The position numbers were made by a program, and so were the translations under genes. The notes beneath the pieces are model-generated. The model saw only the letters and a program-made list of their open reading frames with translations, had not been told where the DNA came from and did not search any database. Of a stretch of DNA of 64,000 bases, positions 8,251 through 45,108 are shown piece after piece (positions within the stretch are counted from its first letter, which is position 1; the number at the start of each line of letters is the position of its first letter). Source of the DNA: an uncultured Bacteroidales bacterium (GTDB lineage Bacteria > Bacteroidota > Bacteroidia > Bacteroidales > P3); assembly GCA_947168665.1 (NCBI GenBank), contig CAMVMX010000002.1, forward strand, positions 186,001 to 250,000, in the 5' to 3' direction.

Positions 8251-8480
8251 AAGGCATGTAAGCTGTAAACAAGAAAAGCATTGCAATAATGTCCTTACTT
8301 GTAAATTCTGCAAAATTTCAGTGGGAGGATGGAGCAATAATGCTTTCGCTTGCAGTGTATGCTATGGTCTCACGCCCCGGCATATCCTCAGGCGTGAGAT
8401 ATGTTCTATAGACCCCGTTCCCACAAGGTGATGCAGAAACCTACAAGTAAACGGACATGAGCACATAAGTCTCATGCCTT
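8251..8480 (+). ncRNA. Structured RNA 1 (unassigned family; related to the RNA at 40591-40728)
   Basis: Nested complementary segments imply a long folded RNA. Closing helix: AAGGCATG (8251-8258) with CATGCCTT (8473-8480). ATGTCC (8289-8294) pairs with GGACAT (8453-8458). TTACTTGTA (8295-8303) pairs with TACAAGTAA (8442-8450). After an AA/ACC internal loop, TTCTGC (8306-8311) pairs with GCAGAA (8433-8438). GTGGGA (8321-8326) pairs with TCCCAC (8419-8424). The apical hairpin is TCTCACGCC (8368-8376) with GGCGTGAGA (8391-8399). T-rich TTTCTTTATT follows the closing helix. Its own promoter lies upstream and a TerB-like gene begins 73 nt downstream, so it may be a free sRNA or a leader. The long rod with bubbles recalls 6S RNA, but a second copy in the window argues for a multicopy family. 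Bacteroidales-1 and 6S-Flavo are models to compare. Confidence 0.75.
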
Positions 8481-8552
8481 TCTTTATTGTAGGTGTAATA
8501 TAAACTGTGTAACAAAAACGCCCGTTGGAGACTTGAGGCAGGAGGATTATAT

Positions 8553-40440: not shown

Positions 40441-40500
40441 TGTCACAATGGCCGAATGAAGGGTGATAGGAGGGATGAAACTACTATTTTTGCATAAGTA

Positions 40501-40531
40501 TTTGCTGATTCAGATAAAAGTCGTATCTTTG
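40501..40531 (+). promoter_or_regulatory. Promoter for RNA 2 and its operon
   Basis: TTTG (40501-40504), 19 nt, then TATCTTTG (40524-40531): an exact consensus promoter, followed by CATCG. Transcription would begin near 40539. Confidence 0.85.
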
Positions 40532-40590
40532 CATCGAATTTGAAAATAAAAAATATGACTTAAAAAGAAGACAGATTATAGACATATATT

Positions 40591-40728
40591 GAGCTGACGC
40601 TCTTGTTCTCTGTAAGTAAATGTCTGGAACACATTGCAACTGTGTGAGAATAAGATGGCGAAAGTTCACGCATAGGCGTGGATTCTTTCCCTTATTTACA
40701 CAAAGGTATTTCCAGACAACCTACTTAC
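40591..40728 (+). ncRNA. Structured RNA 2, same architecture as RNA 1 (8251-8480)
   Basis: A GAGC-TGAC-GCTC hairpin (40591-40602) leads the core. GTAAGTA (40612-40618) pairs with TACTTAC (40722-40728). After an AA/ACC internal loop, TGTCTGGAA (40621-40629) pairs with TTCCAGACA (40710-40718). GTGT (40642-40645) pairs with ACAC (40698-40701), AATAAG (40649-40654) with CTTATT (40691-40696), and CACGC (40667-40671) with GCGTG (40676-40680) around ATAG. RNA 1 has the same helices with different sequences, the same AA/ACC loop and CACAA(A)GGT strand, so pairing is conserved by compensatory change. The start codon of the next gene is 69 nt downstream. It could be a stable sRNA or a leader. Confidence 0.75.
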
Positions 40729-40796
40729 AAAATAAGGTAGCATAATAGCATAGAAAGGATTTGCGCCGTTCTTTATTTGAATGTATGTAATAAAAG

Positions 40797-42584
40797 ATGA
40801 ATAATTTAATTGCACAATTTCAGGAGGAGATAGCCTATGGGGAGGATCATTTCAAAGTTGAATATGAAATAATGCCTCTAGTAGCTATTTCAGAAAAAAT
40901 GTCTCCCAAAGAGGAGGAAATAGTACATTCTATCCATTTGATTGATGAACAACAAAGATTACTGGATGAAAAAATAGGAGAACTGAATAATGAAATTGAT
41001 CGATTAACAAACCATGCAGATGGAACAGATTATTTAGTTGCAGCCTCATGTGGACTGTTGTGCGGCCTGTTTGATTCGTTTTTTGTTGGTGAAATTGATT
41101 ATGCAAAGTCGTTTGAAAAGGTAAATGAAAAGATAAATAATTATGTTGAGAAAAAGTCAGAGGAGATCCGGACAAAAGAGACTGTAGAGAAAGCCCTCAA
41201 AAAGAAGATAGAAAGTGCAAAAAAGAAGGGTGTAAAATTGTCAAAAGAAGAAATAAATTCATTCAAGAAACAAGTGGCTGAAACCATAAAAACAAAATAT
41301 AATAAAGTAAAAGCTGCAGATGAACGAGATGGAACATTGAATGCTTTACGTCGAGCAATAATTAAATTGGAAGAGCATTACCAACTTCCTCTTGACAATG
41401 CATTCAAAGGTATGAAAGGGGTCAATGCTGCTTCTCACCATCTTGATGACCTCGCTCACCACCCAACTTTCTTGGGTATGATGGCTGCAATTATGGGTTC
41501 GTTATTACGCACAGCTATTCTCGTTGACAAAAATGGGAAATGGCATTTTAAGTTTGTAAAAACAAATCCGAAAGAATGGGCGGAAATGATTTTGCCCATA
41601 ATTATCTCGGGAATACTTACGTGGATACTTTTTCATGTCAAAAATAAAAAGGGAGACATGATTGACAAAAAGATTCCCAAACCAATACAAAATATTATTC
41701 TTTTATTGGCAGAGACCCCTGCCGCTATTAAGATAATAGAAATAGTAAATAACTGGATGGGGCATTTGGCCAGTGATATGGCTGGGTCAAACTCTCATCC
41801 AGGTGCAGGCATGGGAGTCCCAGGTCTTTTTCTATCTGCGTTGAAAGAGATTGCAAACATTCCTCCATTCAATTACTCGGGTTTGCCAAAAATTGTAGAT
41901 GACTTATACGAGAAACATAAACTTGATTTACGTGCTGAATTAGGATACATACAAGGAGTTATTGATTCGCGCCAGTGGCTGCCTGTTTTTGCCGGGGATC
42001 TACTAGTCAGATTGTTTTATTTTATAAAGAAACTGGTTGAGGAGATTAAATCTGGGAAAAAACTCAAAGATATAAATTGGAGAGCAGTCATACCATTCAA
42101 CAATAGAACAATAGCGAAGATGATGTTGTTGGAATCTGGAGTTTTTTCTGCTATTGATATTGCAGATGCAGCCATTCGTTCTGCTCTTAAGAATGGAACA
42201 TCTAAGAATCCTCTATTCTGGAAAGATTTAGTGTTACGAATTAATATTGTCGGGGTCGGACGATTCGCCATCGCTTTAGGTACAGATGTGGCTATGGGAG
42301 CAAAACTCAATCGAGTTAGAGAAGAAAGAATGGCTCTTGTAAATAAGAAACTACTTTATCAAGATGCGATAATATATTATAACCAAGAACTAATGTGGAT
42401 TAGTGCAGAAAAGACGTTTGAATCAATAAACTCTTTGATGGATAGTATGGAACAAACAATCCGATTGTATAATAATATCATCGAACAAATTGACCAAAAA
42501 TGGGATAATGCCGAAGGTATTTTAGTTGTTATCAAGAGAGCCGACCCTGATTATTACCATGAATTATCAAAAGACCTATTGTAG
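40797..42584 (+). CDS. Unknown coiled-coil membrane protein
   Basis: Predicted 595 aa, family not recognised. The N-terminal 30% is a charged coiled coil (EEEIVHSIHLIDEQQRLLDE) with a hydrophobic stretch near residue 80 (YLVAASCGLLCGLFDSFFVG). A conserved-looking HHLDDLAHHPTFLGMMAAIM lies near residue 212, and another membrane segment MILPIIISGILTWILFHV near 264. The rest is helical with GGG-poor loops and ends in a second coiled region. Composition is far more AT-rich than the flanking genes, a sign of horizontal transfer. It is the first gene after a structured RNA and is followed 32 nt later by another coiled-coil protein. Confidence 0.65.
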   Translation: MNNLIAQFQEEIAYGEDHFKVEYEIMPLVAISEKMSPKEEEIVHSIHLIDEQQRLLDEKIGELNNEIDRLTNHADGTDYLVAASCGLLCGLFDSFFVGEIDYAKSFEKVNEKINNYVEKKSEEIRTKETVEKALKKKIESAKKKGVKLSKEEINSFKKQVAETIKTKYNKVKAADERDGTLNALRRAIIKLEEHYQLPLDNAFKGMKGVNAASHHLDDLAHHPTFLGMMAAIMGSLLRTAILVDKNGKWHFKFVKTNPKEWAEMILPIIISGILTWILFHVKNKKGDMIDKKIPKPIQNIILLLAETPAAIKIIEIVNNWMGHLASDMAGSNSHPGAGMGVPGLFLSALKEIANIPPFNYSGLPKIVDDLYEKHKLDLRAELGYIQGVIDSRQWLPVFAGDLLVRLFYFIKKLVEEIKSGKKLKDINWRAVIPFNNRTIAKMMLLESGVFSAIDIADAAIRSALKNGTSKNPLFWKDLVLRINIVGVGRFAIALGTDVAMGAKLNRVREERMALVNKKLLYQDAIIYYNQELMWISAEKTFESINSLMDSMEQTIRLYNNIIEQIDQKWDNAEGILVVIKRADPDYYHELSKDLL

Positions 42585-42616: not shown

Positions 42617-44059
42617 ATGAGTACTCAAGAAATACTTGGTGACATAAACACCGACCTTGTTCCGTCGGAAATCAATTTGAAGATTTCTGATTTACCTAAG
42701 TCAATCCAAGATCAGATAATATTCCTGGAACAACTAAGAAAAAAGCAAGAAGAAGCTAAGGAAAAAGCAGAAGCCGCAAAAAAAGGAGCTGATAATCTTG
42801 AAGCATATGTGAGAAAAAAATTTCTTGGGAAAGAATATCAGAGTGGTGATACTAAACAAAAAATCGAACAACTTCAAAATGTTGTAAAAGATCTCGCTAA
42901 TGCGCAAGAGTCTGTGACAGAGGCTACAAATATTTCATTGCAGTTTCAAGAATCATTATCCGAAACATCCCAATTCCTTTTGTTTTTAGGAAGCTCTAAT
43001 ATCGCTTCTTTTAATGCCGTTATAGATAACATTAACAGAATTGACAAGGATGGAATTGGTGGCAGTTCTATTAGTGAAGAAGTTAAGGCTAGATTGAAAG
43101 AGGTCGTAAATAGTTTAAAAGAACGTCAAGACGTGATGTTTCGACAAGAAAAAATGGCTGGGGAGTTCAAAAAGTTAGTGGAAGAGCTGAAGCCTATTAT
43201 TGAAAACCTGACAATTAGTAGTGATAATATTTCAAAACTTGTAGATGACCATTATAATGAATTCATTCGCGCACAAAATGAATTTGAGAAAAATATTACT
43301 AGCGCACAACGAAAGAATGAAAGTGTTCAAAAGGATATTAAAGACGCTATTAAGAATACCAATCAGCAATTATTAAATAAAGAGTCGAGTCTGAAAGAGC
43401 TATTTGAGAGAGAGGTATCCGCTATTAGGGAAGAGATTAAATTAACATCACAGAAAAGTCAGCGTTCTATAGCGGATACTAAAAAGGGGTTGGAAGAATC
43501 TGTTGAGACAACCAATAAACTATTATTGAGTAAAGAGTCGAGTCTGAAAGAGCTATTTGAGAGAGAGGTATCCGCTATTAGGGAAGAGATTAAATTAACA
43601 TCACAGAAAAGTCAGCGTTCTATAGCGGATACTAAAAAGGGGTTGGAAGAATCTGTTGAGACAACCAATAAACTATTATTGAGTAAAGAGTCGAGTCTGA
43701 AAGAGCTATTTGAGAGAGAGGTATCCGCTATTAGGGAAGAGATTAAATTAACATCACAGAAAAGTCAGCGTTCTATAGCGGATACTAAAAAGGGGTTGGA
43801 AGAATCTGTTGAGACAACCAATAAACTATTATTGAGTAAAGAGTCGAGTCTGAAAGAGCTATTTGAGAGAGAAATGTCCGCTGTTAGGGAAGAGATTAAA
43901 TCAACATCACAGGTGAGTCAACAGTCCTTAGAGTATACAAAAAAGGAATTAGAAAAATCAAATGCATTGTTAAAGAAAAAACTAACAATAACCAATGTTG
44001 TGTTATTGGTTTCATATATCATTGCAATAATTGTTTTTGTTTTGTATAAGCTTAACTGA
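42617..44059 (+). CDS. Long coiled-coil protein with tandem 51-residue repeats and C-terminal anchor
   Basis: Predicted 480 aa. Almost the whole protein is heptad-like (IQDQIIFLEQLRKKQEEAKE near the start). Residues about 255-440 consist of near-identical 51-residue units containing KESSLKELFEREVSAIREEI and SQKSQRSIADTKKGLEESVE. The last 25 residues form a membrane anchor (ITNVVLLVSYIIAIIVFVLY). Such a rod fixed in the inner membrane could act as a spacer or scaffold for the preceding protein. No enzymatic motif is seen. It is AT-rich like its partner. Confidence 0.65.
   Translation: MSTQEILGDINTDLVPSEINLKISDLPKSIQDQIIFLEQLRKKQEEAKEKAEAAKKGADNLEAYVRKKFLGKEYQSGDTKQKIEQLQNVVKDLANAQESVTEATNISLQFQESLSETSQFLLFLGSSNIASFNAVIDNINRIDKDGIGGSSISEEVKARLKEVVNSLKERQDVMFRQEKMAGEFKKLVEELKPIIENLTISSDNISKLVDDHYNEFIRAQNEFEKNITSAQRKNESVQKDIKDAIKNTNQQLLNKESSLKELFEREVSAIREEIKLTSQKSQRSIADTKKGLEESVETTNKLLLSKESSLKELFEREVSAIREEIKLTSQKSQRSIADTKKGLEESVETTNKLLLSKESSLKELFEREVSAIREEIKLTSQKSQRSIADTKKGLEESVETTNKLLLSKESSLKELFEREMSAVREEIKSTSQVSQQSLEYTKKELEKSNALLKKKLTITNVVLLVSYIIAIIVFVLYKLN
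43379..43930 (+). repeat. 153-bp tandem repeats inside the coiled-coil gene
   Basis: Units begin at 43379, 43532, 43685 and 43838, each with AAAGAGTCGAGTCTGAAAG, spaced exactly 153 bp (51 codons). The second and third units look identical base for base, the first differs only at its 5' junction, and the fourth diverges after about 40 bp (GAAATGTCCGCTGTTAGG). Copy number is likely to vary by slippage without changing frame. Confidence 0.9.
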
Positions 44060-44655: not shown

Positions 44656-45108
44656 ATGAGTTATGTCAGCACATTGTATCATATCGTCCTGCGTACACAC
44701 TGCAGTGAGTCAGCTATTGCCGAAGAGTATGAGAATGAACTGTATGCCTATATGAATGGCATCATCAATAACTATAACGGCAAACTGTACCGCATCGGCG
44801 GTATGCCTGACCATGTGCATCTGCTGGTATCCTTGCCAGCCACATTGGCTCTGGCCTCTTTTGTGAAAGAGCTGAAAGTGTCATCCAGTAAATGGATGAA
44901 AGCCAACCCACACTTTCCAAAGTTCACTGGGTGGTCGCAGGAGTATGCGGGATTCACTTACAGTATTCACGACAGAGACAAGATCATCAATTATATTAAG
45001 GGACAGAAGGAGCATCACAAGAAGATGACCTTAGCCGAAGAGTATAGACGGTTTATCGAGGCCAATGAGGTGGCTATAGACAACCGGTTCTTCATGAAGG
45101 ATGCATAG
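44656..45108 (+). CDS. REP-associated IS200-like Y1 transposase
   Basis: Predicted 150 aa, full length for TnpA of the IS200/IS605 group. The HUH motif is GGMPDHVHLLVSLPA (about residue 49) and the nucleophile Tyr lies in IINYIKGQKEHHKK (about residue 115). It cuts and joins single-stranded DNA at hairpins. No TnpB gene accompanies it; instead REP palindromes flank it on both sides, so it behaves as a RAYT-like housekeeper of REP sequences or a degenerate IS200. It appears intact. Confidence 0.92.
   Translation: MSYVSTLYHIVLRTHCSESAIAEEYENELYAYMNGIINNYNGKLYRIGGMPDHVHLLVSLPATLALASFVKELKVSSSKWMKANPHFPKFTGWSQEYAGFTYSIHDRDKIINYIKGQKEHHKKMTLAEEYRRFIEANEVAIDNRFFMKDA

Follow-up and report, generated by a model that had tools for sequence, protein, structure and literature searches.

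A structured RNA leader with a predicted terminator-like alternative fold, one copy of a Bacteroidia RNA family, ahead of an operon with a BnzB-like gene in an uncultured Bacteroidales bacterium

A folded RNA (hereafter RNA2) lies ahead of the operon that begins at position 40797 of the window, the whole stretch of 64,000 nucleotides of an uncultured Bacteroidales bacterium that we analyzed, and it raises the question of what this RNA does for the genes behind it. An earlier note on this DNA had described its promoter, its stems and the motifs AGGT (40704-40707) and ACCT (40719-40722), and all of these were exact in the sequence (Table 1); the promoter at 40501-40531 is presumably of the Bacteroidetes type. 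That the RNA is folded was borne out beyond chance, both by the leader at 40540-40796 (257 nt; -62.8 kcal/mol, z = -3.68, equalled by 0 of 200 dinucleotide shuffles) and by relatives with extensive compensatory change. We place the limits of the unit outside the 40591-40728 initially delimited: it would begin with the mini-ORF (40555) and run as far as the U-rich tract, close to position 40778.

Table 1. Coordinates of RNA2, its operon and RNA1 in the window
Feature	Position	Strand	Partner or basis
Promoter TTTG - 19 nt - TATCTTTG	40501..40531 (TTTG 40501-40504; TATCTTTG 40524-40531)	+	read in sequence
Mini-ORF ATG-ACT-TAA (Met-Thr-stop)	40555..40563	+	ATG/short-ORF listing of window
5' hairpin GAGC/GCUC	40591..40602	+	98.0% of cells paired, 102 copies
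P0 5' strand UUGUU	40603..40607	+	partner AAUAA 40731-40735, 3' of P1'; 97.6% of cells paired
P1 5' strand TGTAAGTA, hypervariable	40611..40618	+	partner TACTTACA 40722-40729; sequence and covariation
P2 5' strand TGTCTGGAA	40621..40629	+	partner TTCCAGACA 40710-40718; sequence and covariation
P3 5' strand	40641..40654	+	3a UGUGU with 40698-40702; 3b AAUAAG with 40691-40696
P4 5' arm, in-core hairpin, proposed antiterminator	40663..40671	+	partner 40676-40684
P4 3' arm GGCGUGGAUUCUUUC, strand common to both folds	40675..40689	+	15 consecutive pairs with 40753-40767, G-U counted
Conserved AGGU 40704-40707 and ACCU 40719-40722, either side of P2'	40704..40722	+	
3' element GAAAGGAUUUGCGCC, complement of P4 3' arm, proposed terminator strand	40753..40767	+	
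U-rich tract GUUCUUUAUUU, directly 3' of 3' element	40768..40778	+	
First gene, 595 aa, BnzB-like (Bunzi anti-phage system)	40797..42584	+	PADLOC profile
Second gene, 480 aa, coiled-coil-like, internal repeats, C-terminal hydrophobic stretch	42617..44059	+	by eye
RNA1, proposed sister subclass	8285..8488	+	core, 3' element 8464-8478, U-rich tract 8479-8488

The fold was evaluated in an alignment (A4) of 102 copies and 45 base pairs. Within A4, which was fitted to the model and is favored by that fitting, 96.2% of pair cells held standard pairs (75.7% in shuffles), both-side changes occurred in 33 of the 45 base pairs (shuffles 25.0) and in 902 cells (234), and the covariation score was 0.600 against 0.194 in shuffles. 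When the alignment was slid as a control, pairing dropped to 34-45%. A separate MAFFT alignment of 19 sequences gave 90.1% paired cells against 78.7 and 108 both-side cells against 34.5, with just 16 base pairs changed on both sides against 13.0, a level reached by 10 of 500 shuffles. Among the individual helices of the 102 copies, both-side changes were seen in 7 of 7 modelled pairs of P1 (98.0% paired), 7 of 8 of P2 (92.4% paired), 12 of 12 of P3 (helices 5 and 6) and 4 of 9 of P4 (helix 7; 97.4% paired), while P0 (helix 2), changed on both sides in 1 of 5 pairs, showed little covariation. The sequences of P1, P2, and P3 are almost free, and the loops and the tip of P4 are conserved. Stacked as P0-P1-P2-P3-P4, the helices give the core the shape of a long rod; its internal loops are conserved, and the sequence of the helices varies freely.

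How far this RNA extends beyond the window was followed with a covariance model (R1), built from 19 aligned copies, RNA2 among them and one (L051) from another family. RNA2 scored 130 bits with all helices; since it is one of the building sequences, the independent evidence is that of the relatives. In its own genome, blastn with RNA2 found two more copies on contigs C6 and C4 (E < 1e-5), as well as two contigs that break off in bases matching the 5' hairpin, and R1 found four places at E < 1e-8. Two contigs stop at the 5' hairpin within near-identical leaders (L004, L005, L012, L013; start of C8 and end of C2 of genome G000); further identical copies have therefore probably collapsed in assembly, and copy counts are minimal. 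Under filters stricter than those of the window scan, with rough E-values and with overlapping genomes from the genus upward, R1 matched at least 89 of 99 genomes of the genus (E <= 0.01; up to 12 matches per genome, about 370 in total as a column sum), at least 145 of 190 genomes of the window's family in 11 of 12 genera (E <= 0.001), at least 61 of 295 order-drawn genomes (57 of those outside the window's family), and at least 17 of 296 phylum-drawn genomes (E <= 1e-4), namely its own and 16 from other orders of the same class. A pattern of the 5' hairpin occurred in 67 stretches of named genomes: 64 titles give Bacteroidales, Bacteroidetes or Bacteroidia, nine of the 67 name the rumen, and the remaining three (Kribbia, Variovorax, and Synergistaceae) reached at most 25.5 bits with R1 or no score. 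RNA2 is thus one copy of a large, widespread Bacteroidia RNA family, and the relatives in family, order, and phylum genomes, with their compensatory changes, uphold the earlier suggestion of a conserved RNA family.

The counts that follow come from partly different sets of copies, many of which are related and hence not independent; clustering was applied to the mini-ORF test only. The order-drawn group of 50 copies comprises 49 from other families and one (L205) from the window's family, and the set of 75 copies includes L051, a copy from another family that also bears the handle L176.

Past P1', the leader carries a 3' element that is similar to the P4 5' arm and so complementary in sequence to the P4 3' arm. 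Over the 102 copies, the duplex between the P4 arm and its own 3' element averaged -17.8 kcal/mol, as opposed to -13.7 kcal/mol when partners were permuted (sd 0.29; lowest mean of 2000 permutations, -14.8) and -8.9 kcal/mol when the 3' region was shuffled. Part of this advantage follows from the likeness of the 3' element to the P4 5' arm, and it shows complementarity, short of termination. A copy's own 3' element ranked first of 102 for its P4 arm in 5 copies and within the top five in 29 (median rank 11), a low self-rank that arises because many copies are alike. Duplexes of at least 12 bp were present in 95 of 102 copies (shuffled mean 41.6, maximum 51; permuted partners 73.0), the 9 nt that follow contained six or more T in 87 (shuffled mean 4.8, maximum 9), and both features came together in 80 (shuffled mean 1.6, maximum 4, in 20 repeats). 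Predicted mutually exclusive helices of which the second is followed by a U-rich tract, the arrangement expected of an attenuator, were found in these 80 copies. The presence of a duplex of 9 bp or more in all 102 copies was dropped as evidence, since shuffled 3' regions reach 76.7 of 102. The T-rich tract was observed in 48 of the 50 order-drawn copies and in 39 of the 52 others; in the window's family it is usually interrupted (CTTTCTTTA) and the 3' element can also form a short local hairpin. The loop of the proposed RNA2 terminator is long (63 nt). A conserved upstream ORF directly 3' of the 3' element, considered in the window's family, was rejected by eye as its frame varies among copies.

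On these predicted pairings, P4 and the downstream helix with its U-rich tract look like an antiterminator and a terminator, and a switch between them is strongly suggested. For RNA2 the two folds are close in calculated energy, with a free minimum of -55.7 kcal/mol and -55.3 kcal/mol when the alternative is forced (a gap of 0.4). Over the 102 copies the free minimum was lower than the forced alternative by a mean of 13.3 kcal/mol (sd 6.3, range 0 to 34.4), so that the P4 fold would be the resting state expected of most copies as long as nothing opens the core. The earlier note had proposed refolding by pairing of AGGT with ACCT across a helix. Its general idea of an alternative pairing stood, but the better supported partners are the P4 3' arm and the 3' element: the AGGT and ACCT motifs are conserved, and 75 of 102 copies have a complementary run of four or more, but matched motifs scored 3.96 and permuted ones 3.87 (sd 0.064), with no covariation, and the switch ascribed to them was given up.

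Upstream of the core, the promoter motif TAnnTTTG was situated 58-80 nt 5' of the hairpin in 49 of 75 copies. An ATG with 0-3 codons and a stop, 18-66 nt before the hairpin, was found in 79 of 117 distinct copies (dinucleotide-shuffle mean 33.5, maximum 46 in 200 shuffles), and in its 0-2 codon form it was present in 46 of 79 clusters formed at 70% identity (mean 14.3, sd 3.4, maximum 25 in 500 shuffles). A stop followed in frame for 55 of 76 ATGs, compared with 19 and 14 in the other phases. Between groups, the 0-2 codon form occurred in 56 of 69 near relatives (null 12.3, maximum 22) and 20 of 48 order-drawn copies (null 9.2, maximum 19; in-frame stops for 25 of 40 ATGs against 9 and 9), so the mini-ORF is weaker outside the window's family. 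Its forms include ATGTAA (18), ATGACATAA (16), ATGTAG (8), and ATGGCATAA (6). The mini-ORF was present in 41 of 49 copies with the promoter and 20 of 25 without it, and in 38 of those 41 its ATG was placed 22-28 nt 3' of the -7 box. Read from its sequence, a mini-ORF in this position hints that ribosomes may take part in the signal. It lies about 35 nt 5' of the hairpin, which it does not overlap, whereas in a leader-peptide attenuator translation of the short ORF would overlap the switching helix. In our judgement, a mini-ORF kept before a switch, in promoterless copies too, is unusual. Five copies (L143, L129, L130, L144, and L152) have no mini-ORF and an apparent 5' hairpin of the CCAA...TTGG type directly after the promoter, by eye an apparent swap of the 5' module.

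The placement of the copies relative to genes was not random. Of 66 copies (9 of the 75, with no sequence or gene, were left out), 62 shared the strand of their first downstream gene, against 73:53 for the other intergenic gaps of the same loci, in agreement with the expectation that the RNA heads genes; for two of the four exceptions (L168 and L007) a same-strand ORF of 54 aa fell below the size cut. Peptides of 53-54 aa ending in SGEVHGGSDFD follow L007 (7565-7729), L168, L147, and L165, and a fimbrillin-like gene lies near that of L007 by eye. One contig (G266:C66, L217) carries the RNA twice, at a spacing of about 1.1 kb, with each copy heading one of two similar genes, an apparent tandem duplication of leader plus gene.

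The genes themselves were diverse. For 69 of the 75 copies a downstream protein was taken as the longest ORF starting within 460 nt, and no Pfam family matched these 69 proteins more than twice. They include TerB, ion channel, trypsin-like, nuclease, and restriction-modification domains, many others resemble lipoproteins or secreted proteins by eye, and no common pathway was seen among the downstream genes. The earlier view that the RNA belongs to a class of membrane coiled-coil operons does not survive this diversity. A small HTH-like gene followed 19 of the 50 order-drawn copies (18 by pattern and L187 by reading), an assignment backed by alignment, with HTH_3 matched by just 1 of 60 proteins; in other families 10 of 18 such genes start 19-28 nt after the core end, at the U-run. 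L196 heads a type III methyltransferase-like gene, and two further proteins of the 60 match type I and type II methyltransferase models (L193 and L209 by eye).

Defence genes were also encountered behind the leaders. Among the matches listed by PADLOC for the 69 proteins (25 of 41 matched families, 25 of the 69 proteins having been scanned singly) were ZorA (L158), TmtA (L102), PD-Lambda-1 (L128), and BnzB (RNA2), together with a weak mREase_IV match of L061. Because 58 control genes from the same loci match PADLOC too (AbiEi, Vsr, and PDC among the 25 listed of 73 families), we claim no enrichment in defence, and the idea that the RNA marks defence operons was discarded. The first gene of RNA2 matched PDLC03834 BnzB (E = 6.3e-41, residues 59-507) and thereby resembles the Bunzi system (BnzA/BnzB), a likeness that concerns the cargo and not the RNA. 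Unlike in Bunzi, the second gene had no BnzA match in the PADLOC scan; its weak ZorA match (E = 3.6e-5) perhaps reflects coiled-coil similarity. Neither gene had a Pfam match at or above the cut-off. The translation of the second gene contains, at about 43380-44000, about three near-identical repeats of some 50 residues (SSLKELFEREVSAIREEIKLTSQKSQRSIADTKKG...). Whether the RNA accompanies homologous operons, which the earlier note had made a test of its proposal, received a mixed answer: the only other relative of the first gene in the family at E <= 1e-10 (42% identity, genome G022) stands in a genome with no R1 match under the stricter filters, and upstream of it no copy was seen by eye. At about 900-970 of L184, that homologue adjoins the apparent 3' end of a tRNA gene, by eye like an integrated island.

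The window contains a second RNA of this kind, RNA1, which had been assigned to one family with RNA2. Its 3' element (8464-8478) is complementary to its P4 3' arm (8391-8403), with a duplex of -21.1 kcal/mol, and the stretch 8285-8460 folds with z = -6.81. R1 gave RNA1 17.9 bits (E = 0.047 in the 64-kb window, filters off), below the 20.2 bits of an antisense match to RNA2 itself, so that the two RNAs are barely linked by the model alone. Relatives of RNA1 were found by blastn in 88 of 189 family genomes and at three places in its own genome, RNA1 included. By eye these share P1, AA/ACC, P2, and AAGGT and have a P0 of different sequence (UGUCC/GGACA); the alternative helix was present in RNA1 and 12 relatives (13 of 20 loci) at -16.6 to -21.7 kcal/mol, values given with no computed null. 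The single-family claim is thus supported by architecture (P1, AA..ACC, P2, AAGGT) and the alternative helix, and weakly by the model score; judged from architecture, RNA1 and RNA2 are likely sister subclasses.

A comparison with known RNAs indicated that the kind of element is familiar. Like riboswitch and attenuator leaders in general, RNA2 is a 5' leader with conserved loops and variable helices in which one strand has two partners and a second hairpin precedes a U-rich tract; unlike them, its family has no core match in Rfam and is found before diverse genes in up to 12 copies per genome. Rfam 15 had no match to the core in the window at gathering score, and E-value scans of the RNA2 leader and the scanned relative loci gave core matches at chance level only. 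Apart from DUF805b, no Bacteroidetes Rfam motif was reported in the loci scanned. DUF805b RNA (RF02914, cis-reg) is a hairpin that a number of these leaders also contain, past the 3' element and ahead of the start codon, and differs in being 35 nt long and separate from the core. It scored 39.8 in L044 against a gathering score of 35.6 and fell just under it (32.8-34.8) in L002, L003, L042, L047, L049, and L173; a loose form of the motif occurred in 43 of 75 copies, and 40450-40850 of the window, which includes the RNA2 leader, had no match (gathering 35.6 bits). Flavo-1 (RF01705) and other Rfam Bacteroidetes motifs share with RNA2 that they are structured Bacteroidetes RNAs, as far as the partial texts of PMC9723704 and PMC2864571 go. 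Within the same limits, PMC9723704 describes a flavobacterium with 64 structured 5' regions, not all of which match Rfam, and PMC8040213 has 3161 candidates; in PMC9723704, PMC8040213, and PMC2864571, supplements aside, the partial texts held no RNA of such description. A structured leader with a terminator-like switch is a known kind, and the class is new as far as Rfam 15 reaches.

On balance we favor the reading, based on sequence and modelled folds, that RNA2 is a cis-acting regulatory leader, the 5' UTR of the operon at 40797, with a P4/terminator switch. The fold, as seen by covariation, the conserved complementarity with its U-rich tract, and the placement before genes are properties of the copies themselves. 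From these we infer transcription termination, which state is on, and the existence of a trigger. The P4 3' arm would have two partners, either the P4 5' arm in the core or the downstream element followed by the U-rich tract. With P4 formed there would be no terminator and the polymerase would read on; with the P4 3' arm taken by the downstream element, a hairpin like an intrinsic terminator would form before the gene and transcription would stop. A signal that stabilizes or disrupts the core would set the balance between the two folds.

The same elements could act on translation, the alternative helix and the U-rich tract exposing or hiding the ribosome entry region with no end to transcription. 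Outside the window's family, the HTH-like gene often has its start codon directly after the U-run (for example L175, L177, L192, and L198), which implies that structure touches initiation there, and the tract in the window's family usually has no clean U-run. However, 46 of 62 same-strand genes in the near-relative set start 57-144 nt past the core end, far for direct occlusion in many copies, and the U-run is kept better than this mechanism needs (48 of 50 order-drawn copies); we consider a translational switch unlikely. A leader that mainly stabilizes or processes the mRNA, as an RNase III-like rod or by 5' protection and without sensing, would suit a long near-continuous helix whose hypervariable strands keep their pairing, as well as diverse downstream genes with no shared pathway seen. 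It leaves unexplained the conserved internal loops, the second partner of the P4 3' arm with its U-tract, and the mini-ORF, and we regard it as improbable.

We give little credence to a family of trans-acting sRNAs similar to FopS and GibS of Bacteroides, for which the downstream gene would be incidental. On the one hand, the RNA is multi-copy within genomes, has its own promoter in 49 of 75 copies and a terminator-like end, and FopS/GibS are likewise multi-copy RNAs with their own promoters (PMC11697453, in part). On the other hand, 62 of 66 copies head same-strand genes at short distance and, among the 26 copies with no promoter, 12 follow a same-strand ORF by no more than 130 nt. By its description in the partial text of PMC11697453, FopS comprises trans-acting sRNAs about 65-70 nt long, in which a stretch at the 5' end is single-stranded and the one hairpin is a terminator, which sets it apart from the 150-nt rod in leader position of the RNA2 family. 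Slightly less probable still, in our view, is an element that moves or recombines and for which the folding of one DNA strand is what counts. Some leaders do seem, from their sequences, to have been exchanged between unrelated genes: one P1 is common to L112 (TerB) and L126 (another gene), and in L139/L084 and L006/L132 the gene is kept and P1 differs. Just past the RNA2 operon, at 44656-45108 (+), there is also a 150-aa ORF that we take, by eye, to be small Y1/REP-associated-transposase-like. Yet other ortholog groups hold gene and P1 together (L145/L079, L168/L007, and L130/L144/L174), gene orientation is strict and accompanied by promoter and mini-ORF, and one 180-nt RNA2 query had no blastn match among 50,697 records of phages and 72,556 of plasmids, as the single 5' hairpin pattern had none in viral contigs. 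Given the mixed pattern among ortholog groups, P1 as a per-gene barcode was rejected. An integron attC-like reading was considered and set aside.

If the P4/terminator switch operates as proposed, the accessory genes under its control would include surface-type proteins, HTH-like regulators, and some restriction and other defence genes. It is conceivable, albeit rather unlikely, that the RNA2 leader is a general "translation-state" attenuator, class-wide in its action and moved from gene to gene as a module. A ribosome on a mini-ORF of one to three codons would start and stop and hardly elongate, and might thus report initiation, termination or recycling, thereby deciding between P4 and the terminator helix. 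Were this true, a disturbance of translation, such as phage or starvation may cause, would release accessory surface and defence genes. The RNA2 family would place a shared RNA switch before many unrelated accessory genes in an important gut phylum, which makes its signal directly testable.
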